NCBI GenBank assembly: GCA_022376925.1
Contig: JAIOJX010000003.1
Span: 36,943,874-37,007,873, forward strand
DNA: 64,000 nt
Direction: 5' to 3'
Origin: Tragulus kanchil
Lineage: Eukaryota; Chordata; Mammalia; Artiodactyla; Tragulidae
The notes under the pieces are model-generated. The model was given only the letters and a program-made list of their open reading frames with translations, searched no databases and had not been told where the DNA came from. Shown one piece after another: positions 1,001 to 64,000 of the stretch (the stretch's first letter is position 1; each line of letters begins with the position of its first letter). Position numbers and translations under genes: made by a program.

Positions 1001-1700
1001 GAGAGGTGGACAGACGCCAGGGCGGCGAGCGACAGAACCAGCCACGCCTCTCGGGCGCTTCACTCCGTTCCTCGCCGCGCCCTCGGGCGCCGCCCCCGCA
1101 CGATCACGCGACCGGGACGCAGCCCCCGGCCGTGCACACGCGCACACACACACACGCACACACGCGGCCCGCGAATCTCGGCCGTGCGCGTCCGCCCCGC
1201 CGCGCACTCACTTGTAGGGCACCGGCCACTGGCGCCGGGAGGGGTCGCCCGCCGCCGCCGCGGTCGCCGCCGCCAGCAAGAGCAGCGCCGGGGCCCAGCG
1301 CCCAGGCGCGCGCTCCGGGCCCGCGCCCCGCCAGCCCCAGGCCCCCGCCGCCTGCGCCATGCGCCGGCTGCCTGCCGCCTCCCCCGCCGCGCGCCCGCGG
1401 AGGGCCGGCGGGCCGAGCATGCGCAGAGCACCGCCCCGGCCCACCCGGGACCCGGGCGCCGTCCAACCTGCGGCCGACTCGGGCGCCCGGGCACGAAGCG
1501 CAGCCGCCGCCGCTCCTCCGCTGTCCCGGGGCGGCTTCCGGACTTGGAGGAGCCGGAAGGCGCTCTGGTCACGCCCCCAGCAGCCCGGACAGGATGTGGG
1601 CCGCCTTCTTCTCGGACTGTCTTCTGTGCCGAATTCTCCTGGGCTCACGGCTCCGCGTTCTTGGAGCTTCTGCTGACCTCCCCCCGACCGCCGCCACCAG
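1000..1700 (-). promoter_or_regulatory. CLN5: CpG-island promoter of CLN5, copy A
   Basis: A strongly GC- and CpG-rich stretch covers CLN5 exon 1 and its upstream flank, with a CA/CG microsatellite at about 1137-1170. No TATA box is evident, so it is a typical housekeeping CpG-island promoter. The duplicate lies at about 2140-2790. It may fire in both directions, but no plus-strand first exon can be proven. Confidence 0.75.
1212..1360 (-). CDS. CLN5: CLN5 exon 1, coding part, copy A (intact frame)
   Basis: CLN5 is a lysosomal glycoprotein whose loss causes a neuronal ceroid lipofuscinosis; it has been reported as the bis(monoacylglycero)phosphate synthase. The exon encodes 49 codons plus two bases, from MAQAAG to SRRQWPVPY, then a GTGAGT donor at 1206-1211. 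The SRR(H/Q)WPVPYK segment matches human CLN5. Residues 23-37 (APALLLLAAATAAAA) form the hydrophobic core of a signal peptide. The frame stays open upstream to 1648 with other ATGs (for example 1418-1420, 20 codons earlier), as in human, where the start has been debated; I chose the ATG matching the short form. Later exons lie left of the window. A second copy at 2308-2455 carries a frameshift. Confidence 0.9.
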
Positions 1701-1776
1701 AAGCAAACACACAGCAGATCCAGCTTTGGGCTCCTGTGGGTTCTCTAGCCCCGGAACTTTTACCTTATCTCTCAGG

Positions 1777-1978
1777 ACTTCCCTGGTAGTTCAAAGGGTA
1801 CAGAATCTGCCTGCCGTGAAGGAAGGAGACCCGGGTTCAGTCCCTGGATCGGGACGATCCCCTGGAGCAAAGGCCTGACAACCCACTCCCGTATTCTTGC
1901 CTAGAAAATACCGTGGAGGGAGGGGCCTTGCAGACGTACACCCCATGGGGTCGCAAAGACTCGGACAGGACTGAGCTC
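1777..1978 (+). mobile_element. Bov-tA-type SINE (copy at 2872-3073)
   Basis: Begins GACTTCCCTGGTAGTTC, with B-box-like GGGTTCAGTCCC and the CCCATGGGGTCGCAAAGACT end. Diverged. Lies upstream of CLN5; the second copy belongs to pair 1. Confidence 0.85.
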
Positions 1979-2139
1979 AGCGATGAATGCCTTCCTCCCG
2001 ACACCATCACCCAGTTCAGAATCAGGGCTAACCTGGCTTGTCTGAAATTCTGGCCAAAATGATAGGGAGACTCAACCTCGCAGGAAAAACGGATGTGTAT
2101 GTTGGGTTTGCAGGGCGTGTATCTGTAGGACAGCCACGG

Positions 2140-2790
2140 CCCCCTCTCGGGCGCTTCACTCCGTTCCTCGCCGCGCCCTCGGGCGCCGCCCCCGCACGAT
2201 CACGCGACCGGGACGCAGCCCCCGGCCGTGCACACGCGCACACACACACACGCACACACGCGGCCCGCGAATCTCGGCCGTGCGCGTCCGCCCCGCCGCG
2301 CACTCACTTGTAGGGCACCGGCCACTGGCGCCGGGAGGGGTCGCCCGCCGCCGCCGCGGTCGCCGCCGCCAGCAAGAGCAGCGCCGGGGCCCAGCGCCCA
2401 GGCGCGCGCTCCGGGCCCGCGCCCCGCCAGCCCCAGGCCCCGCCGCCTGCGCCATGCGCCGGCTGCCTGCCGCCTCCCCCGCCGCGCGCCCGCGGAGGGC
2501 CGGCGGGCCGAGCATGCGCAGAGCACCGCCCCGGCCCACCCGGGACCCGGGCGCCGTCCAACCTGCGGCCGACTCGGGCGCCCGGGCACGAAGCGCAGCC
2601 GCCGCCGCTCCTCCGCTGTCCCGGGGCGGCTTCCGGACTTGGAGGAGCCGGAAGGCGCTCTGGTCACGCCCCCAGCAGCCCGGACAGGATGTGGGCCGCC
2701 TTCTTCTCGGACTGTCTTCTGTGCCGAATTCTCCTGGGCTCACGGCTCCGCGTTCTTGGAGCTTCTGCTGACCTCCCCCCGACCGCCGCC
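2140..2790 (-). promoter_or_regulatory. CLN5: CpG-island promoter of CLN5, copy B
   Basis: Near-identical second copy of the island at 1000-1700, inside duplication pair 1. In the deduplicated locus there should be a single island. Confidence 0.65.
2308..2455 (-). pseudogene. CLN5: CLN5 exon 1, copy B, frameshifted (probable assembly duplicate)
   Basis: This is the same exon as 1212-1360, displaced by about 1.1 kb. It lacks one C in a run of five near codon 7 (minus strand: the frame turns from AAGAWGW to AAGPGAG), so the ATG and the WPVPYK end are in different frames. The donor GTGAGT is retained at 2302-2307. The loss of one base in a homopolymer, in a copy inside a period-1.1-kb duplication, looks like a sequencing or assembly error and not a true pseudogene. 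Confidence 0.8.
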
Positions 2791-3067
2791 ACCAGAAGCA
2801 AACACACAGCAGATCCAGCTTTGGGCTCCTGTGGGTTCTCTAGCCCCGGAACTTTTACCTTATCTCTCAGGACTTCCCTGGTAGTTCAAAGGGTACAGAA
2901 TCTGCCTGCCGTGAAGGAAGGAGACCCGGGTTCAGTCCCTGGATCGGGACGATCCCCTGGAGCAAAGGCCTGACAACCCACTCCCGTATTCTTGCCTAGA
3001 AAATACCGTGGAGGGAGGGGCCTTGCAGACGTACACCCCATGGGGTCGCAAAGACTCGGACAGGACT

Positions 3068-5210
3068 GAGCTCAGCGATGAATGCCTTCCTCCCGACACC
3101 ATCACCCAGTTCAGAATCAGGGCTAACCTGGCTTGTCTGAAATTCTGGCCAAAATGATAGGGAGACTCAACCTCGCAGGAAAAACGGATGTGTATGTTGG
3201 GTTTGCAGGGCGTGTATCTGTAGGATTCTGCGTGGATCTGCACTTGAGCATGGCTTAAAACTAGAGCTTCTGAGACCAGACACTAGAGGGCCACCGTGGA
3301 ACTCCCCATCCTGCTCGGGATTTCCCAGAGCTGCGAAATCAAGCTTCAGGTGGACCTTGGTTGGTAGTGGGGATCTTCCTTTTTGGGGGTGCAGCCTCTT
3401 GACTGCCTGCTGTGAGAAAGCATTCCCTTCTATCAGCCCTAGACCAGGCTCTCAGTAGCTGACAGTAGCTGACATCCTCTGGTTCTGCCTCCTGATCTTG
3501 GCTATGACCCCAGTACCCCAGGCCAAGGATGCCTGAGACCACTGTTGTCTGATCCCTCAACATACTGATTACTTATCTCTGGTCCGAGGCTTTTAAACTT
3601 TGAAGACCCAACAGATAGACTGAATTTTAATTTGGGGTTTCTCCTGGGGGTTCCAATTAGCCCTAAGACCACAAGAGTGAACCAGTACTGTAGTAAACAG
3701 TAAAACATTTATTAACTGTTGTGTTGTGGGAGATTGTACACAGAGGACAGCTTAGCATCTCCCCAAACAAAGGAAACACAGAGTTATAGGATTCTAGAGT
3801 AGCATGGAGTTTAGATGAAATCTAGGTGAGCTGTATTTTGGTAGACTCAAAGCAAGGCTGTGTGTTAACACAGAGTCAATGTGAAGTCTAGACAACAAAG
3901 TGAGCCTGGGGTCCTATTTCCTTGAAAACTACAGAGTTAAAACAGAGACGAAATCTTTGTGTCTAGAAGGCCCTAATTGGGAGCTCTGCACCTGGGTTAT
4001 AAAGCTTGTAAGTAAAGCTGCCTCTCTGTGTCAAGGGACCGAGAAGCTCCAGGCAAAGGTGGGCTGTTTCCTTCTCACTGATATAATTTCAAGAGCCCAA
4101 ACACTCTAAATCTTTATCTTTAGAGAACAAACCGGACTGAGATGCCTTGAGCTCAGCGATGAATGCCTTCCTCGACACCATCACCCAGTTCAGAATCAGG
4201 GCTAACCTGGCTTGTCTGAAATTCTGGCCAAAATGATAGGGAGACTCAACCTCGCAGGAAAAACGGATGTGTATGTTGGGTTTGCAGGGCGTGTATCTGT
4301 AGGATTCTGCGTGGATCTGCACTTGAGCATGGCTTAAAACTAGAGCTTCTGAGACCAGACACTAGAGGGCCACCGTGGAACTCCCCATCCTGCTCGGGAT
4401 TTCCCAGAGCTGCGAAATCAAGCTTCAGGTGGACCTTGGTTGGTAGTGGGGATCTTCCTTTTTGGGGGTGCAGCCTCTTGACTGCCTGCTGTGAGAAAGC
4501 ATTCCCTTCTATCAGCCCTAGACCAGGCTCTCAGTAGCTGACAGTAGCTGACATCCTCTGGTTCTGCCTCCTGATCTTGGCTATGACCCCAGTACCCCAG
4601 GCCAAGGATGCCTGAGACCACTGTTGTCTGATCCCTCAACATACTGATTACTTATCTCTGGTCCGAGGCTTTTAAACTTTGAAGACCCAACAGATAGACT
4701 GAATTTTAATTTGGGGTTTCTCCTGGGGGTTCCAATTAGCCCTAAGACCACAAGAGTGAACCAGTACTGTAGTAAACAGTAAAACATTTATTAACTGTTG
4801 TGTTGTGGGAGATTGTACACAGAGGACAGCTTAGCATCTCCCAAACAAAGGAAACACAGAGTTATAGGATTCTAGAGTAGCATGGAGTTTAGATGAAATC
4901 TAGGTGAGCTGTATTTTGGTAGACTCAAAGCAAGGCTGTGTGTTAACACAGAGTCAATGTGAAGTCTAGACAACAAAGTGAGCCTGGGGTCCTATTTCCT
5001 TGAAAACTACAGAGTTAAAACAGAGACGAAATCTTTGTGTCTAGAAGGCCCTAATTGGGAGCTCTGCACCTGGGTTATAAAGCTTGTAAGTAAAAGCTGC
5101 CTCTCTGTGTCAAGGGACCGAGAAGCTCCAGGCAAAGGTGGGCTGTTTCCTTCTCACTGATATAATTTCAAGAGCCCAAACACTCTAAATCTTTATCTTT
5201 AGAGAACAAA
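3068..5210. repeat. Direct duplication pair 2 (3068-4131 / 4149-5210)
   Basis: Two copies about 1,080 bases apart, otherwise unique DNA with no recognised gene. The left end overlaps copy B of pair 1, so the segment 1974-2130 occurs three times (again near 3069 and 4150). Copy B lacks two bases in a CCCG run near its start. Bases 4132-4148 at the junction match neither flank cleanly. Confidence 0.95.
3279..3292 (+). promoter_or_regulatory. CTCF-like motif, weak (copy near 4360)
   Basis: ACACTAGAGGGCCA fits 11 of 14 positions of the CTCF core CCASYAGRKGGCRS. It lies upstream of the CLN5 promoter, in forward orientation on the plus strand. Confidence 0.35.
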
Positions 5211-7654: not shown

Positions 7655-7985
7655 AAAAAACTCTTTAATTGAAGTATAGTGGATTTGCATTATTGTGTTA
7701 GTTTTAAGTATACAGCACAATGATTCAGTTACACATATATAAAAATACTTTTCAGATTATTTCCCATTATCGGTTAGTAAAAGATGTTGAATATAGTTCC
7801 TTGTGTTAATGAGATAAATCCTTGTTGCTTATCTATTTTATATAAAGTGATTTATGTCTATTAATCCTGTACTCCTAATTTATTCCTCTCCTCCCTTTCC
7901 CCCTGTGGTAACCATAAACTTGCTTTCTATGTCTGTGAGTCTGTTTCTGTTTTGAATGTGAATTCATATGTGCTATTGAATATTT
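7655..7985 (+). mobile_element. Artiodactyl L1 3' UTR fragment
   Basis: Recognised from TTAATTGAAGTATAGTGGAT, CAATGATTCAGTTACACATA, and GGTAACCATAAACTTGC with TGTCTGTGAGTCTGTTTCTG. Pair 3 repeats the part after 7786 at 8887-9086. Confidence 0.85.
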
Positions 7986-8149
7986 TAAATTATAAAAATT
8001 ATTGTATATAAATATTGATGTTCTCTTTTGAAATAAGTTGCATGGAAGTCACTGTAGTCCACCGAAAGGTAGAAATTCATTTTTTCCCTCCTCTTAACTG
8101 TAAAGATAATTTTGAAATGAGTTTCTGGCTAATAAAATCTGGGTTACAG

Positions 8150-8535
8150 CTCCCTCGAACACCTTTTCTTCCCTCCTCGCACAAAGCACAGAACAGCTGC
8201 AGCTACTCGCTTCTGGATGCGCGGGGTCAGCAGGTGGGCTCTCTCGCCCACCAGACTGTGACCCCAGGTCAACATTGCCTCCGGCAGGCTGTGCGTAGGC
8301 CAGCCCGCCGCTAGGCGGCGCTTGAGTGCTGCCCGCTCTGCGCACCAGGCTGCGAGGCTCAACTGCCCCGCCCACTTCCTGTCGGCTGGGACGTTCTGTG
8401 GGGGCCAAGGGCGTCAAACTTCGGCCGGGCTGGTGCTCCTGAGGCAACCAGGGCAAGGTCAGGACAGACTGCGGGTGGCGGTGGAGGCGGAGAGTTGGGG
8501 GGTTGGCGGGTTTCCACTCTTCAGCCTGCGGAGTT
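8150..8535. promoter_or_regulatory. GC-rich candidate regulatory segment (copy at 9250-9635)
   Basis: CpG-enriched unique DNA in AT-rich surroundings, with a CCCCGCCCAC Sp1/KLF-like box, ACTTCCTG ETS-like site and a CTCF-like motif at 8308-8321. It could be a distal promoter or enhancer. No transcript is proven. Confidence 0.4.
8308..8321 (+). promoter_or_regulatory. CTCF-like motif (copy at 9407-9420)
   Basis: CCGCTAGGCGGCGC fits 12 of 14 positions of CCASYAGRKGGCRS, within a GC-rich segment. Forward orientation on the plus strand. Confidence 0.45.
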
Positions 8536-8658
8536 GTGGGCCAGACGCATCTGAAAACTTTTTCCTTTCCTGCAGTTTATTTCTTTATAATGTTGAACTG
8601 TATCACATGCTCTTTTGTCCCGTCTGTTTGGTCATCAGCTACTGAACTGCACTTTAGA

Positions 8659-8705
8659 CAGAAAAAAAAAAAAAAAAGAGAGAGAGAGAAAATAGAAAGG
8701 AAAAA
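8659..8705 (+). repeat. A-tract followed by GA repeat (copy near 9760-9800)
   Basis: About 16 A then (GA)n and A/G-rich DNA. Both copies have the same length, which is notable because such tracts usually vary between real paralogues. Confidence 0.8.
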
Positions 8706-10079
8706 GAAAACCGGGCCGGCAGTGTTCACCATTTTAGTGGATTTAAGGGTTGGAGGCAAGGGAACTGCAGTGACCCCCTGCCCTTCCATGAGTTTCTGGT
8801 GGCAGCCAGGGTAGGAGGGAGCTGGGGGAGGCTTGCTAATCCAGAGCTTACGGGCATGTGACCCCTGCCCTTCCTGGTAAATGGAAGTTGAATATAGTTC
8901 CTTGTGTTAATGAGATAAATCCTTGTTGCTTATCTATTTTATATAAAGTGATTTATGTCTATTAATCCTGTACTCCTAATTTATTCCTCTCCTCCCTTTC
9001 CCCCTGTGGTAACCATAAACTTGCTTTCTATGTCTGTGAGTCTGTTTCTGTTTTGAATGTGAATTCATATGTGCTATTGAATATTTTAAATTATAAAAAT
9101 TATTGTATATAAATATTGATGTTCTCTTTTGAAATAAGTTGCATGGAAGTCACTGTAGTCCACCGAAAGGTAGAAATCCATTTTTTCCCTCCTCTTAACT
9201 GTAAAGATAATTTTGAAATGAGTTTCTGGCTAATAAAATCTGGGTTACAGCTCCCTCGAACACCTTTTCTTCCCTCCTCGCACAAAGCACAGAACAGCTG
9301 CAGCTACTCGCTTCTGGATGCGCGGGGTCAGCAGGTGGGCTCTCGCCCACCAGACTGTGACCCCAGGTCAACATTGCCTCCGGCAGGCTGTGCGTAGGCC
9401 AGCCCGCCGCTAGGCGGCGCTTGAGTGCTGCCCGCTCTGCGCACCAGGCTGCGAGGCTCAACTGCCCCGCCCACTTCCTGTCGGCTGGGACGTTCTGTGG
9501 GGGCCAAGGGCGTCAAACTTCGGCCGGGCTGGTGCTCCTGAGGCAACCAGGGCAAGGTCAGGACAGACTGCGGGTGGCGGTGGAGGCGGAGAGTTGGGGG
9601 GTTGGCGGGTTTCCACTCTTCAGCCTGCGGAGTTGTGGGCCAGACGCATCTGAAAACTTTTTCCTTTCCTGCAGTTTATTTCTTTATAATGTTGAACTGT
9701 ATCACATGCTCTTTTGTCCCGTCTGTTTGGTCATCAGCTACTGAACTGCACTTTAGACAGAAAAAAAAAAAAAAAAGAGAGAGAGAGAAAATAGAAAGGA
9801 AAAAGAAAACCGGGCCGGCAGTGTTCACCATTTTAGTGGATTTAAGGGTTGGAGGCAAGGGAACTGCAGTGACCCCCTGCCCTTCCATGAGTTTCTGGTG
9901 GCAGCCAGGGTAGGAGGGAGCTGGGGGAGGCTTGCTAATCCAGAGCTTACGGGCTGGATGCATGGAAGGGGCCCACGTGAGAGCTTCCAAATCTGCTCCT
10001 GGTAATAAAAGCCCTGGGATAGTCACTCTGAGCTCTAAGGTGTTTCAGATCCCATTTGCTTTAGGTCCTCAATTGCCAA

Positions 10080-10150
10080 CCTGATAAATGGAATCGCTTG
10101 GGGAGATTTTAAGCCATACCAGTGCCTGGACTAGCACTTGCCTCTCGGAG
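10080..10150. mobile_element. MER5-like fragment (copy near 11200)
   Basis: Contains AAATGGAATCGCTTGGGGAG followed by TTTTAAGCCATACCAGTGCC, resembling the arms of the hAT-derived MER5A element. Old and short. Confidence 0.4.
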
Positions 10151-10355
10151 GTTCCCATGTACATAGTCTCTTTGGGCCTCAAACACCCCAGGGCTGCATC
10201 AGGATGCAGCCAGGATCGACAATCACTACTTTGAACGATTTCAAGGGCCGATTTCATTTTTCTCCCGTTGTTTTGGGGCCCTCTATGTTCCAGTCTATAA
10301 AACTGGATCCTTTCTTCCACCGCTTTAGAAAGCATACGTATAGGTGCTTTAAATG

Positions 10356-10375
10356 CACACACACACACACACACA
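10356..10375 (+). repeat. CA microsatellite (copy at 11473-11492)
   Basis: Ten CA units followed by (CATA). The identical unit count in both duplicate copies fits a recent or artefactual duplication. Confidence 0.9.
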
Positions 10376-10645
10376 TACATACAAGCGACAAACCTCCTTC
10401 TGTTCTGTTCTCTTTTTATGGAAGCTAATTTATAGCGCTATTGTTTTTTCCCCTCTAGGAATTCCCTGCAATTTCTCCCTAGCCTTCGAGCTGTAGTATT
10501 TACAGCTGGTGTTGGCCCTGAAGGTGCACACAGAATGATTTAGTGGTTTTCTGACTTTCCTTTCTGGTTTAGGCTCTGAGATAGACTGGCTTGATTGTTT
10601 TCCTAGAGGCAATGACATCATTTGTTTTTATTTCTATTTTTGAAG

Positions 10646-10816
10646 GTGAAGATATTTGCTCCTCATGCTGAGCAGAGGCACATCATTAATCCGTTGAAAG
10701 AGAGCCCAACTGAAGAGAAGAGAAATGTGCTGGAGGAACGTGCCAGGCGGGCCCACGGGATGCCCAAGACTTGGCAGACCTGAACTCCAGCGAGCTCAGG
10801 GCTGTCAGCGGACCTG
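10646..10816 (+). ncRNA. Candidate spliced exon of an unannotated plus-strand transcript (copy at 11763-11933)
   Basis: Preceded by a T-rich tract ending TTGAAG at 10645 and followed by a strong GTGAGT donor at 10817. The frame starting at the first base is open for 45 codons, then stops, so it may be noncoding. No family similarity recognised. It lies about 2.1 kb past the GC-rich segment at 8150-8535 on the same strand. Splice signals are the only support. Confidence 0.3.
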
Positions 10817-10914
10817 GTGAGTGAGCCGAAAGCAGCGAGGCCAACTGTTCATTTTAATTAATGCTCACGGACTTCCCGGCCATCTTCCCGAAAGAGTGGT
10901 ACAGGCTTAGCGAC

Positions 10915-11000
10915 CATTTTGAACCCCTGTTCCAGGCTCTGGGTCTGCAGCACGTGAGAAACACTTGGAGAGTTTTTAAAACCTCCTGATGCCTAGGTTG
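10915..11000. mobile_element. MER5-like fragment (copy near 12032-12115)
   Basis: Contains GAGAAACACTTGGAGAGTTT then TTAAAACCTCCTGATGCCTA, an arm of a MER5A-type hAT element. Confidence 0.45.
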
Positions 11001-12116
11001 GGCTTCCTTCGTGGCTCAGACAGTAAAGAATCTGCCTCGGAACTGGGTCGATGGGACTTGAAGAGCTTACGGGCTGGATGCATGGAAGGGGCCACGTGAG
11101 AGCTTCCAAATCTGCTCCTGGTAATAAAAGCCCTGGGATAGTCACTCTGAGCTCTAAGGTGTTTCAGATCCCATTTGCTTTAGGTCCTCAATTGCCAACC
11201 TGATAAATGGAATCGCTTGGGAGATTTTAAGCCATACCAGTGCCTGGACTAGCACTTGCCTCTCGGAGGTTCCCATGTACATAGTCTCTTTGGGCCTCAA
11301 CACCCCAGGGCTGCATCAGGATGCAGCCAGGATCGACAATCACTACTTTGAACGATTTCAAGGGCCGATTTCATTTTTCTCCCGTTGTTTTGGGGCCCTC
11401 TATGTTCCAGTCTATAAAACTGGATCCTTTCTTCCACCGCTTTAGAAAGCATACGTATAGGTGCTTTAAATGCACACACACACACACACACATACATACA
11501 AGCGACAAACCTCCTTCTGTTCTGTTCTCTTTTTATGGAAGCTAATTTATAGCGCTATTGTTTTTTCCCCTCTAGGAATTCCCTGCAATTTCTCCCTAGC
11601 CTTCGAGCTGTAGTATTTACAGCTGGTGTTGGCCCTGAAGGTGCACACAGAATGATTTAGTGGTTTTCTGACTTTCCTTTCTGGTTTAGGCTCTGAGATA
11701 GACTGGCTTGATTGTTTTCCTAGAGGCAATGACATCATTTGTTTTTATTTCTATTTTTGAAGGTGAAGATATTTGCTCCTCATGCTGAGCAGAGGCACAT
11801 CATTAATCCGTTGAAAGAGAGCCCAACTGAAGAGAAGAGAAATGTGCTGGAGGAACGTGCCAGGCGGGCCCACGGGATGCCCAAGACTTGGCAGACCTGA
11901 ACTCCAGCGAGCTCAGGGCTGTCAGCGGACCTGGTGAGTGAGCCGAAAGCAGCGAGGCCAACTGTTCATTTTAATTAATGCTCACGGACTTCCCGGCCAT
12001 CTTCCCGAAAGAGTGGTACAGGCTTAGCGACCATTTTGAACCCCTGTTCCAGGCTCTGGGTCTGCAGCACGTGAGAAACACTTGGAGAGTTTTTAAAACC
12101 TCCTGATGCCTAGGTT

Positions 12117-12330
12117 GGGCTTCCTTCGTGGCTCAGACAGTAAAGAATCTGCCTGGAATGCAGGAGACCTGGGTTCGATGCCTGGGTCGGGAAGATCCTC
12201 TGCAGAAGGATAGTGGTAACCCCCTCCAGTATTCTTGCCTGGAGAATTCCAGGGACAGAGGAGCCTGGTGGGCTACAGTCCATGGGGTTGCAAAGAATCA
12301 GACACGACTGAGTGACTGACACACACACAG
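12117..12330 (+). mobile_element. Bov-tA-type SINE (head also at 11000-11037)
   Basis: GGCTTCCTTCGTGGCTCAG head, GGGTTCGATGCCTGG B box, body and GACACGACTGAGTGACTGAC end with a CA tail. Full length. Copy A of pair 4 stops 37 bases into this element. Confidence 0.92.
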
Positions 12331-13140: not shown

Positions 13141-15378
13141 CAAGCCTGGTGCCTGAGCTAAGATCGGCTGCAATAGTTGAGGGCTGGTTGTGTGGCCATG
13201 TGGGCCTTGCCTGTGGCCATCTTGGGCTTCCTTAGAACCCATGGACCTCAGGTGCTCAGGTTGCTCATGTGAGAGCTGGCATCGTTTAAAACAAGCATTC
13301 CAAGAAAACTCGGCTTTCCTCTTCGGATTTATCCAAGAAGTTCCTTAGCATTGTTTCCGCTACATTGTTAAGATCACAGTGAGACCAGATTCAAAGCAAG
13401 GAGACTATAAAAGGCCCAGAGTACTGGGAGGCGTGAGTGCTGGGACACTGTCTTTGGAAGCTTGCTGTACATTATATGTATACAAAGTTTATTATGTAAA
13501 CAAATTTAAATACCTATTTAGAAAACCCCATGCAGGGTGAGGGAAAGTGATTGTATTTGAAAGTGACTGGTGTTTTGAAATTTTACTCTTCTTCCATTGC
13601 AGATAGATTTGCCTTAAGATACCTTTAGGGCTTCACAGGTGGCTTAGTGGTAAAGAATGCAGGAGCTGTAGAAGACATGGGTTCGATCCCAGGGTCGGGA
13701 AGATCCCCTGGATAAAGAAATGGCAACCCACTCCAGTATTCTTGCATGGAGAATCCCATGGACAGAGGAGCCTGGTGGGCCACAGTCCATGGGGGCACAA
13801 AGAGCTGGACACTACTGAGTGACTGAGCATGGAAGCAAGACAACTTTAGAAAGATAATCACCCATCAGTTGCTAAAATTTAGTGTCTTCACATCTAAGAC
13901 AGTATTACTTGTAAATCGATAAAAAATTACTGCTATTAAAAAATGTTATTCTAGCACATAAAGAGAGGTTTTTGTTTTTAGGAGAAATAAAATTATCTCA
14001 GGAAATCTATAGTTCTACTTTGTACCAAAATTGAAATGTTTAGTAAAAATTAGCATCAGGATGGGTATCCCAGCTTGCGATTCAGAATTTCATACTATTG
14101 ATGCGCAATGCTTGTTAGCTTTATTATGATTAGGTTAATAGAAACCCTTTGTCTGTCTATAATGTGCATTTGCTACAAGGGCTACACTGAAGCCATCAGG
14201 ATTAGGTCTGGGTTCTGGAATGCGGCACCGATTTACAAACATCTCTGAATGCGCTACACGAGTTTAATACAAGCCTGGTGCCTGAGCTAAGATCGGCTGC
14301 AATAGTTGAGGGCTGGTTGTGTGGCCATGTGGGCCTTGCCTGTGGCCATCTTGGGCTTCCTTAGAACCCATGGACCTCAGGTGCTCAGGTTGCTCATGTG
14401 AGAGCTGGCATCGTTTAAAACAAGCATTCCAAGAAAACTCGGCTTTCCTCTTCGGATTTATCCAAGAAGTTCCTTAGCATTGTTTCCGCTACATTGTTAA
14501 GATCACAGTGAGACCAGATTCAAAGCAAGGAGACTATAAAAGGCCCAGAGTACTGGGAGGCGTGAGTGCTGGGACACTGTCTTTGGAAGCTTGCTGTACA
14601 TTATATGTATACAAAGTTTATTATGTAAACAAATTTAAATACCTATTTAGAAAACCCCATGCAGGGTGAGGGAAAGTGATTGTATTTGAAAGTGACTGGT
14701 GTTTTGAAATTTTACTCTTCTTCCATTGCAGATAGATTTGCCTTAAGATACCTTTAGGGCTTCACAGGTGGCTTAGTGGTAAAGAATGCAGGAGCTGTAG
14801 AAGACATGGGTTCGATCCCAGGGTCGGGAAGATCCCCTGGATAAAGAAATGGCAACCCACTCCAGTATTCTTGCATGGAGAATCCCATGGACAGAGGAGC
14901 CTGGTGGGCCACAGTCCATGGGGGCACAAAGAGCTGGACACTACTGAGTGACTGAGCATGGAAGCAAGACAACTTTAGAAAGATAATCACCCATCAGTTG
15001 CTAAAATTTAGTGTCTTCACATCTAAGACAGTATTACTTGTAAATCGATAAAAAATTACTGCTATTAAAAAATGTTATTCTAGCACATAAAGAGAGGTTT
15101 TTGTTTTTAGGAGAAATAAAATTATCTCAGGAAATCTATAGTTCTACTTTGTACCAAAATTGAAATGTTTAGTAAAAATTAGCATCAGGATGGGTATCCC
15201 AGCTTGCGATTCAGAATTTCATACTATTGATGCGCAATGCTTGTTAGCTTTATTATGATTAGGTTAATAGAAACCCTTTGTCTGTCTATAATGTGCATTT
15301 GCTACAAGGGCTACACTGAAGCCATCAGGATTAGGTCTGGGTTCTGGAATGCGGCACCGATTTTTACAAAAACATCTC
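13141..15378. repeat. Direct duplication pair 5 (13141-14245 / 14270-15378)
   Basis: Offset about 1,129, with almost identical copies containing one Bov-tA each (13629-13830, 14758-14960) and AT-rich unique DNA. Twenty-four unmatched bases separate the copies. Confidence 0.95.
13629..13835 (+). mobile_element. Bov-tA-type SINE (copy at 14757-14965)
   Basis: GGCTTCACAGGTGGCTTAG head, GGTTCGATCCCAGGG, full body and CACTACTGAGTGACTGAGCA end. The region between it and 14245 is AT-rich, with no recognised feature. Confidence 0.92.
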
Positions 15379-26056: not shown

Positions 26057-26144
26057 CATAACTGGATTTTAAAAATGCCTTTTAGAAACTCCAGAAGTAG
26101 ACACAAAAATTATTTTTAAAAATGGTAAAATGGGGCTTCCCTTC

Positions 26145-26475: not shown

Positions 26476-26477
26476 CT

Positions 26478-41947: not shown

Positions 41948-41949
41948 AT

Positions 41950-49670: not shown

Positions 49671-50788
49671 TACATTCTGTCTGTGGGAAAACAATGTGCT
49701 AAGGGCTGTGAATGTGGAAGTGAGAGAAGGGAAGAGGGCAAAGCACAACCAGTACCACTGAGGAAACAACAAAAACTGGTCAGAACCTATCTGTCCAAGA
49801 TGGCGGAAGAGTCAACTTCCAGGAGACCTCATGACCGTGAGCCTCACTATATTAGCCTATGATAAATGATACACCTGCTGGTGCCATGACAGGTATGAGA
49901 TTGACCATGAAAGGCCAAAAAAGTGGGCAGTGGCCTAGTTCCTGGAAATCTCCACTCTTCCCCCAGACAGTGGAATAATCCTCATACTTATTAGTACTCA
50001 GCCCATAAATGTTAGCCACTCCATCATTCGGGGCCACCTCTCTCCTTCTGAGGTGGCCCACACTCTGTCTATGCAGTGTGTATCTACCTGAATAAACTTG
50101 CTTTCACTTTGCTATGACTTGCTGTTGAACGCTTCCCTGCACAAAACCAAGGACCCTCCCTTGGTGGTTCCATCCCAGGGACTCACCCCCATTTTCCTGC
50201 AACAGAATAATAAGATGCTGGGAGAAGGTACCTAAAATCAAACTCTCTTAACCCAGAAATCCTCTCCACAGAAGGAACAGAGTGAGCAAACACTTTGTTG
50301 AATAAACAGTGAGCCAGAATGTGATGCCCATCACAGGCAATCTCCAAAGAGATTGCAAAGACAGTAAAGAATCTCACTCCCTTCTACAGCCAACCAGACC
50401 CTATGCGTGGCTTATGTGTTCTTGAAATAATAACTAATTCTCATGTCAGAGGATTTGACATCACCTTTTGTCATACATAATTCATTCTAAATTTACCTGG
50501 TGATTGAGGTGACCATTGGCTAACTGACTTTCTCCGGAGGAAAAACACAGGTCTCATCTCTTCATGAGGAAATATCTTTGCAATTTGGAATAAAGCACCC
50601 ACCCAAGTTACATTCCAGGATCTGTTAACAGTCTCTGCCCCATTTTATGTGAACAAGTGTGTGAGGGAGTGCATACATGTGGACCGTGGTTGCATATGGT
50701 GGTTCCAAGTCTCCACCTAGTTCTGATTTTTGACCAGCTGAGAAATTGCATGTTAGTGCTGGGGTTGACATTCCACCTGTACATTCTG

Positions 50789-51692: not shown

Positions 51693-52590
51693 CCCCCCCA
51701 CTTTTTCTTAAATGTTCCTGCCTCGCCATGCAGATGCAGGATCTTCATTCCCCAACCTGCATGTGCCCTGCTGTGGAAGGGTGGCGTCCTAACTGCTGGA
51801 CCCCCCAGGGAGGTCCCCAGAACCTATGCCCTTAGTCCCAGCACTGTGCTCTGTCCTGAAACTCCTTTCCTCTGGACCCAGCCACACCAGGCTCTCCCGG
51901 TTCTCCACCAGCCTCTCTCACCACATTTCTCTGTGTCCCCGTGCTCCCTCCTCCTCAGCTAGACCACTCAGCCTGCAGCTGCCTGAGCTCCACCTAGGCT
52001 TTCTTTGTCTCATGCTTAACGCTTTTACAAGGGCTTCTCTGCAAGGTTCACTCCAGTCAAGGGCGGATGGCTCCTTGTTGGGTCTCCATGGCTATTCCAC
52101 TGGCCCAAGCTTCAGCCTCAGATACTTGGCTGTCTCTTGGCTGCCTCCACCTGGCTGTCCTTGGGCACCTACTTCATTGCCTTTCCCCGTAAAGTGACCT
52201 TTCCTGTGTATTTTCCAGATCTCACGTGGGCCCATCCATGCTGGAAAGCTAGGAGTCATCTTTACTTTCCTCCTGATCTTCCAGTCTTAGAATTCCCCCA
52301 AATTCCAAGTCTGGGGACTTTTTCTCCTGACTGTGGCTCTGGCTGGAGCCCTTATGGTTTCTTATCTTGAGCTGAACAGGCTTCCTAAGTGGTCTTTGCT
52401 TTCAGTCTCTTCCTCTTCACTATATCCTCCTGTAAACAGAGAAAGTCTTCTCTCTAAACATAACTCTTGATTATTTGTTTGTTTGAACCCCTCATTTATA
52501 GAAGTGTTTCCCATCACTTACAGGCTTTCCATCATTTACAGAAGTGTTTCTTAAAAATGTGATTCTTTCAGTCCTAATGAGGTGGCTGGA
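51693..52590. other. Intergenic DNA with pyrimidine-rich stretches
   Basis: Possible old L2-like material around 51840-52330. ORFs such as 51826-52197 show no domain. Confidence 0.35.
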
Positions 52591-52975
52591 TCTAGAACCC
52601 ATTATAAAAAGTGAAGTAGGGGTGAGGGGAAAAAAAAAGTAAAGTAAGTCAAAAAGAGAAGGACAAGTACACATATATATGGAATCTAGTAGGATGGTAA
52701 TGATAACACATGCAGTGAAGCGATGGAAAAACAGACATGGACAGTAGATATATGGACATTGTGGGGAATGAGGCTTGTACTATCATATGTGAAAAAAATA
52801 GCTATTGTCATTGTGCTGTGAGAAAAGGGGATCCTGCAGGGGTGCTGTGTGATGGCTTGGAGGGGTGGGATGGGGGGATATACATATGACTAATCTGGGA
52901 TCATACATATCTGTAAACAACAAAACTCTAAAAGTAAAAAGTAAAATGAAAATTGAAAAAAAAGAGAGAGAAAAA
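52590..52975 (+). mobile_element. Artiodactyl L1 3' end (copy at 53680-54065)
   Basis: TATGGAATCTAGTAGGATGG, GTGGGGAATGAGGCTTGTAC, CTGTAAACAACAAAACTCTA and an A/G-rich tail. Complementary in strand to the element at 46741-47011. Confidence 0.78.
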
Positions 52976-52999
52976 AAATGTGATTCTTGGGCAAGATGC

Positions 53000-53075
53000 A
53001 TTAGAGTCACATGAGAGTTTGTTGAAGTGGAAACTTTCTAGCCCCAGCCCAGATCCACTGGATCAGCACTGCCAG
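53000..53075. mobile_element. MER5-like fragment (copy near 54090-54165)
   Basis: GCATTAGAGTCACATGAGAG and CCCAGATCCACTGGATCAG resemble an arm of MER5A. Confidence 0.4.
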
Positions 53076-53174
53076 GGCTGCTGTGTACGGGCGTGGACTT
53101 CTGTGACACCAGCAGGTTGATCCGTGACCTGCCACCTGGATAAAATATAAGCACCCTAGAAGGACCTGAGTGTT

Positions 53175-53430
53175 CTGATCTATGTTCCTTTCTCCAACCT
53201 CATCTCCTACCAGGCTCCCTGAGTCTCCCCCAAACACCCGGCAGCTTGTCTGTAATACCCAACTCCACGCACACACAAAACTCACTCACTGGGCTGTCCA
53301 CTGTCTCCTCTGCCCAGAAGGCCTTTGCCTTCCTGCATGTTGTCGTTGCTCCTTCCACTGCCCATCTCAGGGATCCATTCCTCTCCTTAGGTCCCTTGAC
53401 TCCCCAACCAAACCATCACAGGCTCAATAC
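53175..53430 (-). mobile_element. L2-like fragment (copy at 54264-54520)
   Basis: CACTGTCTCCTCTGCCCAGA and AGGCCTTTGCCTTCCTGC resemble antisense L2 3' ends. Diverged. Confidence 0.5.
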
Positions 53431-54547
53431 CTTGTGCCCCTTCTGGTTTCTTATCTTGAGCTGAACAGGCTTCCTAAGTGGTCTTTGCTTTCAGTCTCTT
53501 CCTCTTCACTATATCCTCCTGTAAACAGAGAAAGTCTTCTCTCTAAACATAACTCTTGATTATTTGTTTGTTTGAACCCCTCATTTATAGAAGTGTTTCC
53601 CATCACTTACAGGCTTTCCATCATTTACAGAAGTGTTTCTTAAAAATGTGATTCTTTCAGTCCTAATGAGGTGGCTGGATCTAGAACCCATTATAAAAAG
53701 TGAAGTAGGGGTGAGGGGAAAAAAAAAGTAAAGTAAGTCAAAAAGAGAAGGACAAGTACACATATATATGGAATCTAGTAGGATGGTAATGATAACACAT
53801 GCAGTGAAGCGATGGAAAAACAGACATGGACAGTAGATATATGGACATTGTGGGGAATGAGGCTTGTACTATCATATGTGAAAAAAATAGCTATTGTCAT
53901 TGTGCTGTGAGAAAAGGGGATCCTGCAGGGGTGCTGTGTGATGGCTTGGAGGGGTGGGATGGGGGGATATACATATGACTAATCTGGGATCATACATATC
54001 TGTAAACAACAAAACTCTAAAAGTAAAAAGTAAAATGAAAATTGAAAAAAAAGAGAGAGAAAAAAAATGTGATTCTTGGGCAAGATGCATTAGAGTCACA
54101 TGAGAGTTTGTTGAAGTGGAAACTTTCTAGCCCCAGCCCAGATCCACTGGATCAGCACTGCCAGGGCTGCTGTGTACGGGCGTGGACTTCTGTGACACCA
54201 GCAGGTTGATCCGTGACCTGCCACCTGGATAAAATATAAGCACCCTAGAAGGACCTGAGTGTTCTGATCTATGTTCCTTTCTCCAACCTCATCTCCTACC
54301 AGGCTCCCTGAGTCTCCCCCAAACACCCGGCAGCTTGTCTGTAATACCCAACTCCACGCACACACAAAACTCACTCACTGGGCTGTCCACTGTCTCCTCT
54401 GCCCAGAAGGCCTTTGCCTTCCTGCATGTTGTCGGTTGCTCCTTCCACTGCCCATCTCAGGGATCCATTCCTCTCCTTAGGTCCCTTGACTCCCCAACCA
54501 AACCATCACAGGCTCAATACCTTGTGCCCCTTCTGTGTTTCCCTGGC

Positions 54548-55065: not shown

Positions 55066-55615
55066 CATACACATACACCTCTGTTTCCGTAACACCCTAA
55101 CCTCTTGCACATCCTGTCCATCCTTATTGTTCCATCCCATAAAAACGCTCCTGCCCTCTGTCTGGTTTATCAACTTCTCGACAGGAGACCATTCATCTTT
55201 CCTTTTCCAGGGGTAGATACAATGTCCGATCCACGCCAGATGCCCAGTAAATATTTGTTGAAAAAAAGAAATGAGTGAATCTAGAGGGTGAGTGCAGAAA
55301 AACGGAGGATACAGACAGAGCTGTGAGGAACCATTGAAGCTGGGGTTACACATCCAGCCTGAAAGAGCCTGGTAGCCGTCAGGGGGGAGGTGATGCTTCA
55401 TAAGGGCCTTCAGGGAAAGGGACTTGGAGAATTTTGCAAGGAAATGGCTGACACCGGGACTTTCAGGGCTCGGTGGGCTCTCTGGCACCTGGGCGACCGG
55501 AGGGGCGCAGCGGCGGGTGAGCTTGGAGGCAGCTTGCATCCAGACTGGCCTGACAAGCCTTCCTGAAGGGGGCTCCGTGGCAGGGTGACTTGGATTGAGC
55601 GACCCAGGGCCAGCA

Positions 55616-55629
55616 GCGCCACCTACTGT
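55616..55629 (-). promoter_or_regulatory. CTCF core motif, reverse (copy at 56721-56734)
   Basis: On the minus strand ACAGTAGGTGGCGC fits 13 of 14 positions of CCASYAGRKGGCRS. It points toward the forward motif at 30722-30735, with the ACOD1 promoter between them. Confidence 0.6.
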
Positions 55630-55834
55630 GCCAGACTGGCGTTCCAGCCCCTTGAGTGAGAAGACACGAGCAAGTCACGCATTATCTTGTCAACAGAGTA
55701 TAAGTTTTAAGCTAAAACCTCTCATAGAATGAGAAAAACCCTGTGCGTGACCCATGAAGCACATTCAGCAGGTGATCATAAGTATTATTCTAATGCCATT
55801 TTCCTGCATTCAGCATTTTGGTTAAGGATATACC

Positions 55835-55917
55835 TACGACTGATGTGGGTTTAGGTATTGCTGTAAACAACAGAGCTCTGTAAAAGCAACATAAAAATAA
55901 TTAATAATAAAAAAAGG
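55835..55917 (+). mobile_element. L1 3' end fragment (copy at 56940-57022)
   Basis: GCTGTAAACAACAGAGCTCT followed by GTAAAAGCAACATAAAAA and an A-rich tail. Short 3' remnant. Confidence 0.65.
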
Positions 55918-57539
55918 GCCTGTCTTTTATTATTTCATGGAACATATCTCACTGGCTTGCATGATTTTCCCTTTACCTCTCTTGACGTTTGCATCTGGAC
56001 GCTCTGCAAGTATCGGAGCCTTAATCGCTGCTGCTACTTTTAGCAACCTCTGTTCACTGTTGAGATTTTTATGTCCATAAAATAGTGACACACCAAGAAG
56101 GATAGCACAATTATTGGTAAAGGTAATTGGAATCTAGCTCTTTCAATATATCTTGTTTTATCAGTAATGCCCAGAGTTAAAAGGGTTATAATCTGCATTG
56201 TATCTGGCAGTTTTGAGCACCACGTGGGGGCTTTGATAAACTAGACTTAGTAGAGAGAGAACATTGCTTTCCATCAGTGTGATCATGTGAGGCACCACTC
56301 GACAGGAGATTTTTTGGGTAGATACAATGTCCGATCCACGCCAGATGCCCAGTAAATATTTGTTGAAAAAAAGAAATGAGTGAATCTAGAGGGTGAGTGC
56401 AGAAAAACGGAGGATACAGACAGAGCTGTGAGGAACCATTGAAGCTGGGGTTACACATCCAGCCTGAAAGAGCCTGGTAGCCGTCAGGGGGGAGGTGATG
56501 CTTCATAAGGGCCTTCAGGGAAAGGGACTTGGAGAATTTTGCAAGGAAATGGCTGACACCGGGACTTTCAGGGCTCGGTGGGCTCTCTGGCACCTGGGCG
56601 ACCGGAGGGGCGCAGCGGCGGGTGAGCTTGGAGGCAGCTTGCATCCAGACTGGCCTGACAAGCCTTCCTGAAGGGGGCTCCGTGGCAGGGTGACTTGGAT
56701 TGAGCGACCCAGGGCCAGCAGCGCCACCTACTGTGCCAGACTGGCGTTCCAGCCCCTTGAGTGAGAAGACACGAGCAAGTCACGCATTATCTTGTCAACA
56801 GAGTATAAGTTTTAAGCTAAAACCTCTCATAGAATGAGAAAAACCCTGTGCGTGACCCATGAAGCACATTCAGCAGGTGATCATAAGTATTATTCTAATG
56901 CCATTTTCCTGCATTCAGCATTTTGGTTAAGGATATACCTACGACTGATGTGGGTTTAGGTATTGCTGTAAACAACAGAGCTCTGTAAAAGCAACATAAA
57001 AATAATTAATAATAAAAAAAGGGCCTGTCTTTTATTATTTCATGGAACATATCTCACTGGCTTGCATGATTTTCCCTTTACCTCTCTTGACGTTTGCATC
57101 TGGACGCTCTGCAAGTATCGGAGCCTTAATCGCTGCTGCTACTTTTAGCAACCTCTGTTCACTGTTGAGATTTTTATGTCCATAAAATAGTGACACACCA
57201 AGAAGGATAGCACAATTATTGGTAAAGGTAATTGGAATCTAGCTCTTTCAATATATCTTGTTTTATCAGTAATGCCCAGAGTTAAAAGGGTTATAATCTG
57301 CATTGTATCTGGCAGTTTTGAGCACCACGTGGGGGCTTTGATAAACTAGACTTAGTAGAGAGAGAACATTGCTTTCCATCAGTGTGATCATGTGAGGCAC
57401 CAGCGTTTCACAGCGCTCTTGCTTTTAAAGGCTAGTTTTTCCTCCCAAATTGCGGGATTAAGTCCTTACGGCTATTCTGGAGGGGAGAAACAGGCAACGG
57501 TGAAGCCAGTTCACTGAGTCTTTACACAGAATCAGAAAT

Positions 57540-58790: not shown

Positions 58791-58794
58791 GCAT

Positions 58795-59601: not shown

Positions 59602-59820
59602 ATGCGTGCGTGTTCAGTCCTGTCCGACTCTTTGCGATCCCATGGACTATAGCCCAGCAGGCCTCTCTGTCCGTGGGATTCTCCAGGCAAGAATACTGGA
59701 GTGGGTTGTCATATCCTCCTCCAAAGGATCTTGCCAACCCAGGGATCGAACCCACATTTCTTGGTGTCTTCTGCATTGGCAGGCTGGTTCTTTATCACTG
59801 AGCTACCTGGAAAGTCCCAC
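59602..59820 (-). mobile_element. Bov-tA-type SINE (head part again at 60877-60920)
   Basis: GTCCGACTCTTTGCGATCCC, GGCAAGAATACTGGAGTGGG and AACCCAGGGATCGAACCC. Pair 17 starts inside it, so only its head recurs. Confidence 0.92.
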
Positions 59821-59829
59821 ATTGATGTA

Positions 59830-59938
59830 TTTGGTTTCAGGGGGTGTTAGTTGTGGCATGGGGATCTTGTTCCTTGAACCTGGGGCTTCTGCATTGGGAG
59901 TGCAGCATCTTAGCCTGTGCCCACCAGAAAAGTCCCAT
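59830..59938 (-). mobile_element. CHR-type SINE fragment (copy at 60932-61040)
   Basis: Minus-strand order of GGGGATCTTGTTCCTTGAAC and CTGCATTGGGAGTGCAGCAT, the tRNA-related half of a CHR SINE. Diverged. Confidence 0.65.
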
Positions 59939-60250
59939 GTAAGGGAGGCAGCAGAATTAAGAGTGTTTTCTCACAACCTAAAGGAGGAAAACGTTTCAAA
60001 GACACAGAGTGATCCACAGCGTCACATGTCACAGAGTTCAGGGGAAGCCGAGGAGTGAAAAGAAGTTAGATTTGGCACCAAGGAGGGCTCTGGGGATCTC
60101 CGTCACCCTCAGCACCTTAGTGGGGAGGGGAGGAGCGTGCAGTGCTGTTGAGAGTGGCATAGGCAGAGTGGAGAGGCCAGTATGCATAGGGCTGGTGGGG
60201 GGCCACTTTGTGAAGTGAAGGAGAGTGGGTGCTGGGGCACTTGAGGGCAG

Positions 60251-60566
60251 TTTTTTTTTTAAGATTTATTTATTTATTTATTTCTGGGCGGGGGTCGGGT
60301 TGGGGAGGGAGGGGAGCTTGGTCTTTCGTTTCTCTCTGTTCATCCGTCTTTGTTCTTTGGCTCCTGTGGGCCTCCCATCGCGGTGGCATCTGTCGTTGCA
60401 GAGCACTGGCTCTGGGCGCATGCGCTCCAGAGCTCCGGCTCAGTAATTGGACACATCAGTCCAGTGGCTCCACGGCACGTGGGATCTTCCCAGGCCAGGG
60501 ATCGAACCGGCTCCTCTTGCACTGCAAGGCGGTGTCCTTACCCATTGGACCACCAGGGGAAGCCCA
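60251..60566 (-). mobile_element. CHR-like SINE, GC-rich-tail subfamily (copy at 61353-61668)
   Basis: Complement: GGGCTTCCCCTGGTGGTCCA head, CCGGTTCGATCCCTGGCC, full body, then CCTCCCTCCCCAACCCGAC and an (AAAT)n tail at 60262-60283. Confidence 0.9.
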
Positions 60567-62089
60567 GGGCATTTTTTTATGAAGGGAGACAGGAAATATA
60601 TTTATAGCCAGAGAAGAAGTCGGTAGAGAAGGAACACCAGAGGTGACACAAGACAGAGAATAGCAGATGGGGCACAAGGCCGAGGGGTCCCCAGCTGGGG
60701 AGGCAGGAGGAAGATGGAAGGAGGGAGAAAAACTGGGAGGGTGATAGCTAGAGGGGTGGAGTCTCAGCCTTTCAGGCCAGGGCAAAGTGTGGGAGGTCAG
60801 TTTACAACTTGGCCCATAAAGGAGAAAGAACATGTGCTTAGGAAGTTCCAATCACTGGTTGCCCCCCCTTCTGGCCATTGGCAGGCTGGTTCTTTATCAC
60901 TGAGCTACCTGGAAAGTCCCACATTGATGTATTTGGTTTCAGGGGGTGTTAGTTGTGGCATGGGGATCTTGTTCCTTGAACCTGGGGCTTCTGCATTGGG
61001 AGTGCAGCATCTTAGCCTGTGCCCACCAGAAAAGTCCCATGTAAGGGAGGCAGCAGAATTAAGAGTGTTTTCTCACAACCTAAAGGAGGAAAACGTTTCA
61101 AAGACACAGAGTGATCCACAGCGTCACATGTCACAGAGTTCAGGGGAAGCCGAGGAGTGAAAAGAAGTTAGATTTGGCACCAAGGAGGGCTCTGGGGATC
61201 TCCGTCACCCTCAGCACCTTAGTGGGGAGGGGAGGAGCGTGCAGTGCTGTTGAGAGTGGCATAGGCAGAGTGGAGAGGCCAGTATGCATAGGGCTGGTGG
61301 GGGGCCACTTTGTGAAGTGAAGGAGAGTGGGTGCTGGGGCACTTGAGGGCAGTTTTTTTTTTAAGATTTATTTATTTATTTATTTCTGGGCGGGGGTCGG
61401 GTTGGGGAGGGAGGGGAGCTTGGTCTTTCGTTTCTCTCTGTTCATCCGTCTTTGTTCTTTGGCTCCTGTGGGCCTCCCATCGCGGTGGCATCTGTCGTTG
61501 CAGAGCACTGGCTCTGGGCGCATGCGCTCCAGAGCTCCGGCTCAGTAATTGGACACATCAGTCCAGTGGCTCCACGGCACGTGGGATCTTCCCAGGCCAG
61601 GGATCGAACCGGCTCCTCTTGCACTGCAAGGCGGTGTCCTTACCCATTGGACCACCAGGGGAAGCCCAGGGCATTTTTTTATGAAGGGAGACAGGAAATA
61701 TATTTATAGCCAGAGAAGAAGTCGGTAGAGAAGGAACACCAGAGGTGACACAAGACAGAGAATAGCAGATGGGGCACAAGGCCGAGGGGTCCCCAGCTGG
61801 GGAGGCAGGAGGAAGATGGAAGGAGGGAGAAAAACTGGGAGGGTGATAGCTAGAGGGGTGGAGTCTCAGCCTTTCAGGCCAGGGCAAAGTGTGGGAGGTC
61901 AGTTTTACAACTTGGCCCATAAAGGAGAAAGAACATGTGCTTAGGAAGATCTCTGCCGACATTGAAGGTGACTACTGCCAAGTAGAAAAACATGTGTGTG
62001 AGTAAGGGAGCTGAATAATATATCAAAAAATTCTGTGTGCTTAAAACAATGTTTTCTTGTTGTAATTTATTCTTTAGAAAAGTTTTTTC

Positions 62090-62268
62090 TTTTCATATTT
62101 ATCTCCATCTATCTTTTTATTCTTTGCGCTCCAGAGCACTGGCTCGCAATTGGACACACCAGTCCAGCCGCTCTGCTGCACGTGAGATCTTCCCGGGCCA
62201 GGGATCGAACCGGTGCCCCTTTCACTGCAAAGTGGACTCTTTACCCACTGGGCCACCCGGGAAGCCCT
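62090..62268 (-). mobile_element. CHR-like SINE with internal deletion (copy at 63214-63388)
   Basis: GGCTTCCCGGGTGGCCCAG head and GGTTCGATCCCTGGC, but the middle block between the GAGCGC word and the AGAATAAAAAG tail (about 65 bases) is missing. The deletion is the same in both copies, as expected from duplication pair 18. Confidence 0.85.
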
Positions 62269-62915
62269 GTAATTTATTCTTTGAGGTTCTCTTGCATTTG
62301 GCTTTGTGAGGCTATAGTCACAGTTTTCTAAAACTGGATTTTCCTCGTGGGCCTTTCTTTTTCTCATGGAGTGAGCCATTTAAATCTTTATTTGGGGGCT
62401 GCGTGTTTTTATTGGTTTGTATCTTATATATGTTCTGGCCGGGCTGCCCTTTGCTGGCTGTGCTTTGTCCACGGACCTCCCTACTCAGCCTCACTGGTTT
62501 GTCTCTGATGCTTTTCGATCTTGCCTTTCCCACTAATGTCTATGTTAAATTAAAAAACAAGTAGTCTTATATATGCAGTAACCTAGGCTGTACCATGTAA
62601 GCACTGATTTCCTCTACAGGATTAAAGCAATCTTAAGGTCAGGTTGTTTAAAAGATCAGTTTCTCTCGTTGTCATCTTGGGAGCATCTGTCCCAGAATCA
62701 TTTACTGACTTTAGGCTTTAAGTGGCGTGCCGAGAGGGACTCTTACGCACCACAGAAAGCCACTTTGAGACATCTCGGAGGAGGAGGAGGCTTTGCGGCA
62801 GTCACCAGGCTCCTCCTACTTGACTGCCTGACTGCTCTGTTCTCTGCTGGGGCCAAGCAGGAAGGAACTCTCCTTTTCTGCTCTATTTCTTTCCTCCTCT
62901 CTTGGGTGGATTAGG
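62269..62915. other. Intergenic unique sequence (copy at 63389-64000)
   Basis: No gene or repeat recognised. A 45-base Bov-tA head (62916-62960) precedes copy B of pair 18. Confidence 0.4.
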
Positions 62916-64000
62916 CAGGGCCTTCCCTGGTGGGGTCCTTGTAAAGAATCCTGGGGAGAAAGGAGGGTGATAGCTAGAGGGTGGAGTCTCAGCCTTTCAG
63001 GCCAGGGCAAAGTGTGGGAGGTCAGTTTACAACTTGGCCCATAAAGGAGAAAGAACATGTGCTTAGGAAGATCTCTGCCGACATTGAAGGTGACTACTGC
63101 CAAGTAGAAAACATGTGTGTGAGTAAGGGAGCTGAATAATATATCAAAAAATTCTGTGTGCTTAAAACAATGTTTTCTTGTTGTAATTTATTCTTTAGAA
63201 AAGTTTTTTCTTTTCATATTTATCTCCATCTATCTTTTTATTCTTTGCGCTCCAGAGCACTGGCTCGCAATTGGACACACCAGTCCAGCCGCTCTGCTGC
63301 ACGTGAGATCTTCCCGGGCCAGGGATCGAACCGGAGCCCTTTCACTGCAAAGTGGACTCTTTACCCACTGGGCCACCCGGGAAGCCCTGTAATTTATTCT
63401 TTGAGGTTCTCTTGCATTTGGCTTTGTGAGGCTATAGTCACAGTTTTCTAAAACTGGATTTTCCTCGTGGGCCTTTCTTTTTCTCATGGAGTGAGCCATT
63501 TAAATCTTTATTTGGGGGCTGCGTGTTTTTATTGGTTTGTATCTTATATATGTTCTGGCGGGCTGCCCTTTGCTGGCTGTGCTTTGTCCACGGACCTCCC
63601 TACTCAGCCTCACTGGTTTGTCTCTGATGCTTTTCGATCTTGCCTTTCCCACTAATGTCTATGTTAAATTAAAAAACAAGTAGTCTTATATATGCAGTAA
63701 CCTAGGCTGTACCATGTAAGCACTGATTTCCTCTACAGGATTAAAGCAATCTTAAGGTCAGGTTGTTTAAAAGATCAGTTTCTCTCGTTGTCATCTTGGG
63801 AGCATCTGTCCCAGAATCATTTACTGACTTTAGGCTTTAAGTGGCGTGCCGAGAGGGACTCTTACGCACCACAGAAAGCCACTTTGAGACATCTCGGAGG
63901 AGGAGGAGGCTTTGCGGCAGTCACCAGGCTCCTCCTACTTGACTGCCTGACTGCTCTGTTCTCTGCTGGGGCCAAGCAGGAAGGAACTCTCCTTTTCTGC

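Follow-up and report, generated by a model that had tools for sequence, protein, structure and literature searches.

Eighteen tandem doublings of a single length in a Tragulus kanchil contig, most probably false duplications left by the assembler

Does a stretch of Tragulus kanchil DNA in which eighteen segments of about 1.1 kb are each written twice, head to tail, record duplications in the genome of the animal, or an error made in the writing of its assembly? The stretch, hereafter the window, consists of 64,000 nt of contig JAIOJX010000003.1 of assembly GCA_022376925.1 (positions 36,943,874-37,007,873, forward strand). A preliminary description had listed the 18 head-to-tail pairs and read them as an artefact, due either to overlapping ends that were not merged or to gap filling. 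We conclude, with a probability of roughly 0.92, that the doublings are false duplications arising from consensus units that the assembler left unmerged, and are not DNA of the animal.

Pairs were detected, and the borders of their copies set, by a BLAST of the window against itself. All 18 pairs were recovered as direct repeats, with 17 of the 18 starts lying within 9 bp of those first listed, while the remaining one, 55177, was corrected to 55211 (34 bp away). Since the matches exceed 1 kb at more than 98% identity, they are not due to chance. The pairs are given below, together with the bases that lie between the two copies (filler) or that both copies have in common at their junction.

Pair 1, 1047..3225, plus strand: copies 1047-2130 and 2143-3225; 12-bp filler resembling the sequence preceding copy 1; contains a CLN5-like exon 1 (minus strand)
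Pair 2, 3067..5210, plus strand: copies 3067-4131 and 4148-5210; 16-bp filler; 159 bp in common with pair 1, that stretch being present three times
Pair 3, 7777..9954, plus strand: copies 7777-8855 and 8877-9954; 21-bp filler
Pair 4, 9942..12158, plus strand: copies 9942-11042 and 11062-12158; 19-bp filler resembling the sequence following copy 2
Pair 5, 13141..15378, plus strand: copies 13141-14245 and 14270-15378; 24-bp filler resembling the sequence following copy 2
Pair 6, 18427..20735, plus strand: copies 18427-19589 and 19591-20735; 1-bp filler; 9 insertions or deletions (indels), including a C run 8 bases longer in copy 1
Pair 7, 20613..22887, plus strand: copies 20613-21753 and 21749-22887; 5 bp common at the junction; overlaps pair 6
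Pair 8, 22758..24928, plus strand: copies 22758-23832 and 23853-24928; 20-bp filler; overlaps pair 7
Pair 9, 25997..28137, plus strand: copies 25997-27048 and 27086-28137; 37-bp filler
Pair 10, 33534..35715, plus strand: copies 33534-34620 and 34620-35715; 1 bp common; doubles an ACOD1 exon (minus strand)
Pair 11, 37523..39669, plus strand: copies 37523-38578 and 38615-39669; 36-bp filler resembling the sequence preceding copy 1
Pair 12, 44011..46171, plus strand: copies 44011-45091 and 45097-46171; 5-bp filler
Pair 13, 45914..48125, plus strand: copies 45914-47011 and 47026-48125; 14-bp filler; 258 bp in common with pair 12, more than between any other neighbours
Pair 14, 48567..50788, plus strand: copies 48567-49679 and 49675-50788; 5 bp common at the junction
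Pair 15, 52349..54541, plus strand: copies 52349-53450 and 53438-54541; 13 bp common at the junction
Pair 16, 55211..57402, plus strand: copies 55211-56297 and 56316-57402, 100% identical; 18-bp filler resembling the sequence preceding copy 1, with bases missing
Pair 17, 59768..61948, plus strand: copies 59768-60845 and 60868-61948; 22-bp filler
Pair 18, 61838..64000, plus strand: copies 61838-62881 and 62962-64000, copy 2 reaching the window end; 80-bp filler; overlaps pair 17

The offset from copy to copy has a mean of 1106.2 bp and a standard deviation of 21.5 bp, or about 2% (range 1081-1164; 18/18 pairs). Copy 1 measures 1044-1163 bp and copy 2 measures 1039-1145 bp, the shortest being clipped by the window end, which agrees with the unit size of about 1.1 kb in the preliminary description; the near-identity it claimed amounts to 98.1-100%, with at least 99% in 16/18 pairs. 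Its remark that the units ignore what they cut also holds, as the doubled blocks range in GC content from 0.34 to 0.69 and include exons, with the same offset throughout. This single length in 18/18 cases across unrelated blocks, exons included, supports an artefact. Real duplications would have lengths that depend on each event and substitutions spread over the copies; here, one length was found in 18/18. All 18 pairs have the character of homotype false duplications, namely near-identical tandem copies that differ by sequencing error rather than by haplotype variants. Deletion of one offset per pair removes 19,912 bp and leaves 44,088 bp, in line with the 19-20 kb of false sequence first estimated.

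Further duplications were sought by self-comparison of the window on both strands, at a minimum identity of 93% and an E value of 1e-10. The plus strand yielded 26 rows, made up of the 18 pairs, 5 overlaps between neighbouring pairs and 3 repeats of 49-59 bp, and the minus strand yielded 2 rows of 48 bp each. At this identity, the window thus holds no near-identical duplication of another size longer than 59 bp on either strand. Older repeats, at 80-87% identity, are present, and there is not a single N base across the whole window.

The following course of events probably led to this pattern. The contig would have been put together from successive consensus units, in such a way that one segment of about 1.1 kb both closes a unit and opens the next. 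At 18 joints, the two versions of the common segment would not have been recognised as identical, and the units would then have been placed end to end or joined via a few chance bases. The outcome would be two copies with the frayed ends of the units between them as filler, and the fixed length would be the size of a segment (node) of the layout graph.

The differences between copies fit such an origin. Over the 18 pairs, copy 1 and copy 2 differ at 68 positions, of which 52 are indels and 16 are substitutions. As many as 32/68 fall in the outermost 50 bp of a copy (6.2 expected) and 46/68 in the outermost 150 bp (18.7 expected), although, the copy ends having been set by BLAST, part of these terminal differences are alignment-edge effects. 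Five of the 16 substitutions are located at least 150 bp inside a copy, and some of these interior substitutions could be allelic. Such indel-rich, end-loaded differences fit frayed consensus ends or sequencing error; they are not those of aged duplicates, because these differ mostly by substitutions along the entire copy.

According to the BLAST borders, 14/18 junctions contain 1-80 bp of filler, and 1-13 bp are common to both copies at 4/18. Filler resembling the flanks is expected if a unit extends slightly past the common segment with a poor consensus. This likeness was evaluated in two ways, by a scoring scheme of our own choice, and the outcomes of both versions are given. When the filler was compared with two flanks, against shuffled filler as control, at 12 junctions with at least 5 bp of filler (pair 18 omitted), P < 0.05 was obtained for one of the two flanks in 4/12. 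The second version used other gap costs and random window positions as control, and covered the 12 junctions with at least 10 bp of filler, the other 6/18 being four without filler and two with 1 and 5 bp. Here, the junction's own flank (before copy 1 or after copy 2) was matched in 6/12 at P < 0.05, with a combined P of 7e-7; for pair 18, the flank following copy 2 falls beyond the window. The best likenesses are those of pairs 16, 5, 1 and 4, and the match of pair 8 is T-rich. At 3/18 junctions (21749-21753, 49675-49679 and 53438-53450) the copies have 5-13 bp in common, for which the chance is 0.8% each (P = 0.0003); it looks as if units had been joined there on a short spurious match in place of the true overlap.

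The spacing of the doubled blocks was analysed in collapsed coordinates, where the minimum step is 817 bp and the maximum overlap 258-264 bp. For 18 randomly placed blocks, a minimum step this large has a probability of 0.0008. Neighbouring blocks overlap in 6/17 cases, and certain stretches are therefore present three times. Among the 5 differences in these three-fold regions (n = 6), 3 assign the error to the copy standing at a unit end. The artefact model predicts this, and such a three-copy vote is a weak check of it. The 17 units delimited by the 18 joints have lengths of 1915-7535 bp. The single duplication size, the end-loaded errors, the flank-like filler (6/12) and the floor in block spacing all lend support to the artefact proposed in the preliminary description.

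Which assembler could leave such a trace? In wtdbg2, units that overlap by one node are joined at the consensus step, and the default setting allows neighbouring nodes an overlap of no more than a quarter (256 bp). The doubled blocks keep to a rule of this type, their maximum overlap being about 1/4 of 1.1 kb. From the letters of the window we infer both that reads would not support the doubled copies and which program may have been responsible; given an artefact, the likeliest kind of program is the wtdbg/wtdbg2 family, whose chances we place at even. According to a published account (PMC10989838), wtdbg2 cuts reads into segments of 1024 bp that serve as graph vertices.

Several points weigh against our interpretation, some of them only against its wtdbg2 part. 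The offset of 1081-1164 bp (mean 1106) lies 6-14% above the 1024-bp node, and this excess calls for an explanation, which could be ragged segment ends or a base-calling bias. In a human benchmark of 23 assemblies, one of them made with wtdbg2, false duplication amounted to 0.3-2.3% in most, and the assemblies with the highest values were not that of wtdbg2 (PMC9668749). A standard wtdbg2 run, then, does not behave in this way, and because the benchmark does not show wtdbg2 to be high in false duplication, we lowered our estimate for the family from slightly better than even to even. No published report of this wtdbg2 failure was among the matches listed in our literature search, which does not imply its absence from print. 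As to the wider interpretation, half of the fillers in the second comparison (6/12) match neither flank at P < 0.05, neighbours overlap about as often as they would under random placement (6.3 of 17 expected), and of the 5 differences in three-fold regions one points to the inner copy and one is undecided. Finally, the 5-13 bp common at three junctions would also suit a real duplication mediated by microhomology.

Of the two routes to an artefact raised in the preliminary description, unmerged overlapping ends fit better. Under the other, the gap filling or scaffolding of short contigs, contig ends would have been extended by long reads or local assemblies and the overlap with the next contig kept. 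This would account for errors loaded at the ends and for filler of unclear origin, and in Ko et al. (PMC9516828) false duplications are sometimes linked by sequence without read support that stems from wrong gap filling or other errors. Yet it offers no cause for a single overlap length of 1106 +/- 21 bp in 18/18 cases, and it would require contigs of just 1.9-7.5 kb all along the window; we therefore hold it to be unlikely.

The two remaining explanations were rejected on account of the uniform length and the indel-rich error spectrum, and each seems to us extremely improbable. One is a haplotype (heterotype) false duplication, in which both parental alleles are placed in succession. Near-identical tandem copies are a usual appearance of such errors (PMC2864568, PMC9516828), but alleles should show spread substitutions, whereas only 5 lie at least 150 bp inside a copy and the majority of differences are indels; nor would allelic stretches have one common length. 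The other is that the tandem duplications are real, in which case a process with an inherent tract length of about 1.1 kb, for example one linked to replication, would have doubled the locus one block at a time. The sequence as it stands speaks for it, as does the microhomology-like sharing at 3/18 junctions, but the error spectrum, the position of the errors at copy ends, the filler and a frameshift in the second copy of the CLN5-like exon (see below) fit sequencing error. Moreover, no mechanism is known to us by which 18 adjacent, unrelated stretches would each be copied a single time and at a uniform length.

Two genes are touched by the doublings. Matches to ACOD1 (cis-aconitate decarboxylase), obtained with the human protein as query, are as follows.

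29738-30679, minus strand: ACOD1 exon match, single
31558-31767, minus strand: ACOD1 exon match, single
32953-33051, minus strand: ACOD1 exon match, single
33793-33972 and 34879-35058, minus strand: ACOD1 exon match, doubled in pair 10

In the PDB, the largest of these (29738-30679) has cis-aconitate decarboxylase as a match, at E = 2.1e-161; it is open for 314 codons, is 75% identical to the human protein and lies outside all 18 pairs. The second gene is represented by a first exon on the minus strand, doubled inside pair 1 (about 1211-1360 and about 2307-2455), which is putatively assigned to CLN5 from the human protein; that protein, when compared with the window, gave no match at E 0.01. 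In copy 1 of this exon the start and the PVPYK end share a single frame, while a one-base deletion in copy 2 sets them out of frame with each other.

As regards other repeats, four SINE-type motifs, presumably ruminant, were searched on both strands of the window; two are present (8 and 4 times) and two are absent. A tandem repeat finder, whose maximum period of 500 makes it blind to the pairs of about 1.1 kb, reported periods of up to 47 bp only. A 47-bp unit stands twice in tandem at 41854-41948 (93% matches), outside the 1.1-kb pairs, and is perhaps a genuine old duplication.

The biological content of the 18 doublings is thus very probably nil. If they are an artefact, nearly one third of the 64-kb window is false although no N flags it, and gene annotation and genome-size estimates would be misled; the doubled sequence takes in one exon of ACOD1 and a CLN5-like one, whose second copy has a frameshift. 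Should the whole assembly be alike, errors would follow in genome size, gene models, counts of duplicates and structural-variant calls. Self-alignment allows any assembly to be scanned for the fingerprint, which consists of a single offset of about 1.1 kb, indels at copy ends and short filler.

The 18 doublings look to be a known kind of error, the homotype false duplication, which Rhie et al. (2021) define so as to include overlaps at contig boundaries that appear as gap-separated tandem copies, one such case having been traced to an assembler bug (PMC8081667). As marks of false duplication, Ko et al. (2022) name discordant read pairs, a low or half read depth and gaps that separate the copies, and they describe false exon gains (PMC9516828). 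The likeness to these two papers lies in a locus written twice in tandem, probably through an overlap at a piece boundary that was not merged, and in exons that can be doubled; unlike here, their cases are of about read length and their copies are separated by gaps, whereas ours are always 1.1 kb, with no N and at most 80 bp of filler. The density found here, 18 cases in 44 kb, is very high. Kelley and Salzberg (2010) reported duplicated overlapping contigs (PMC2864568), in which, as probably here, the end overlap of neighbouring pieces is retained twice; theirs, however, are separate contigs with haplotype divergence and a median identity of 98.1%, while our copies stand within one N-free sequence, with at least 99% identity in 16/18 pairs and little sign of haplotype variants. 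With the nodes of wtdbg/wtdbg2 (PMC10989838), the doublings would have in common a graph segment of fixed size near 1 kb, one of which would be shared by consecutive consensus units, and they differ in its length (1024 bp there, a mean of 1106 bp here). What is peculiar to the present case is one single length throughout and joints that carry no gap mark.

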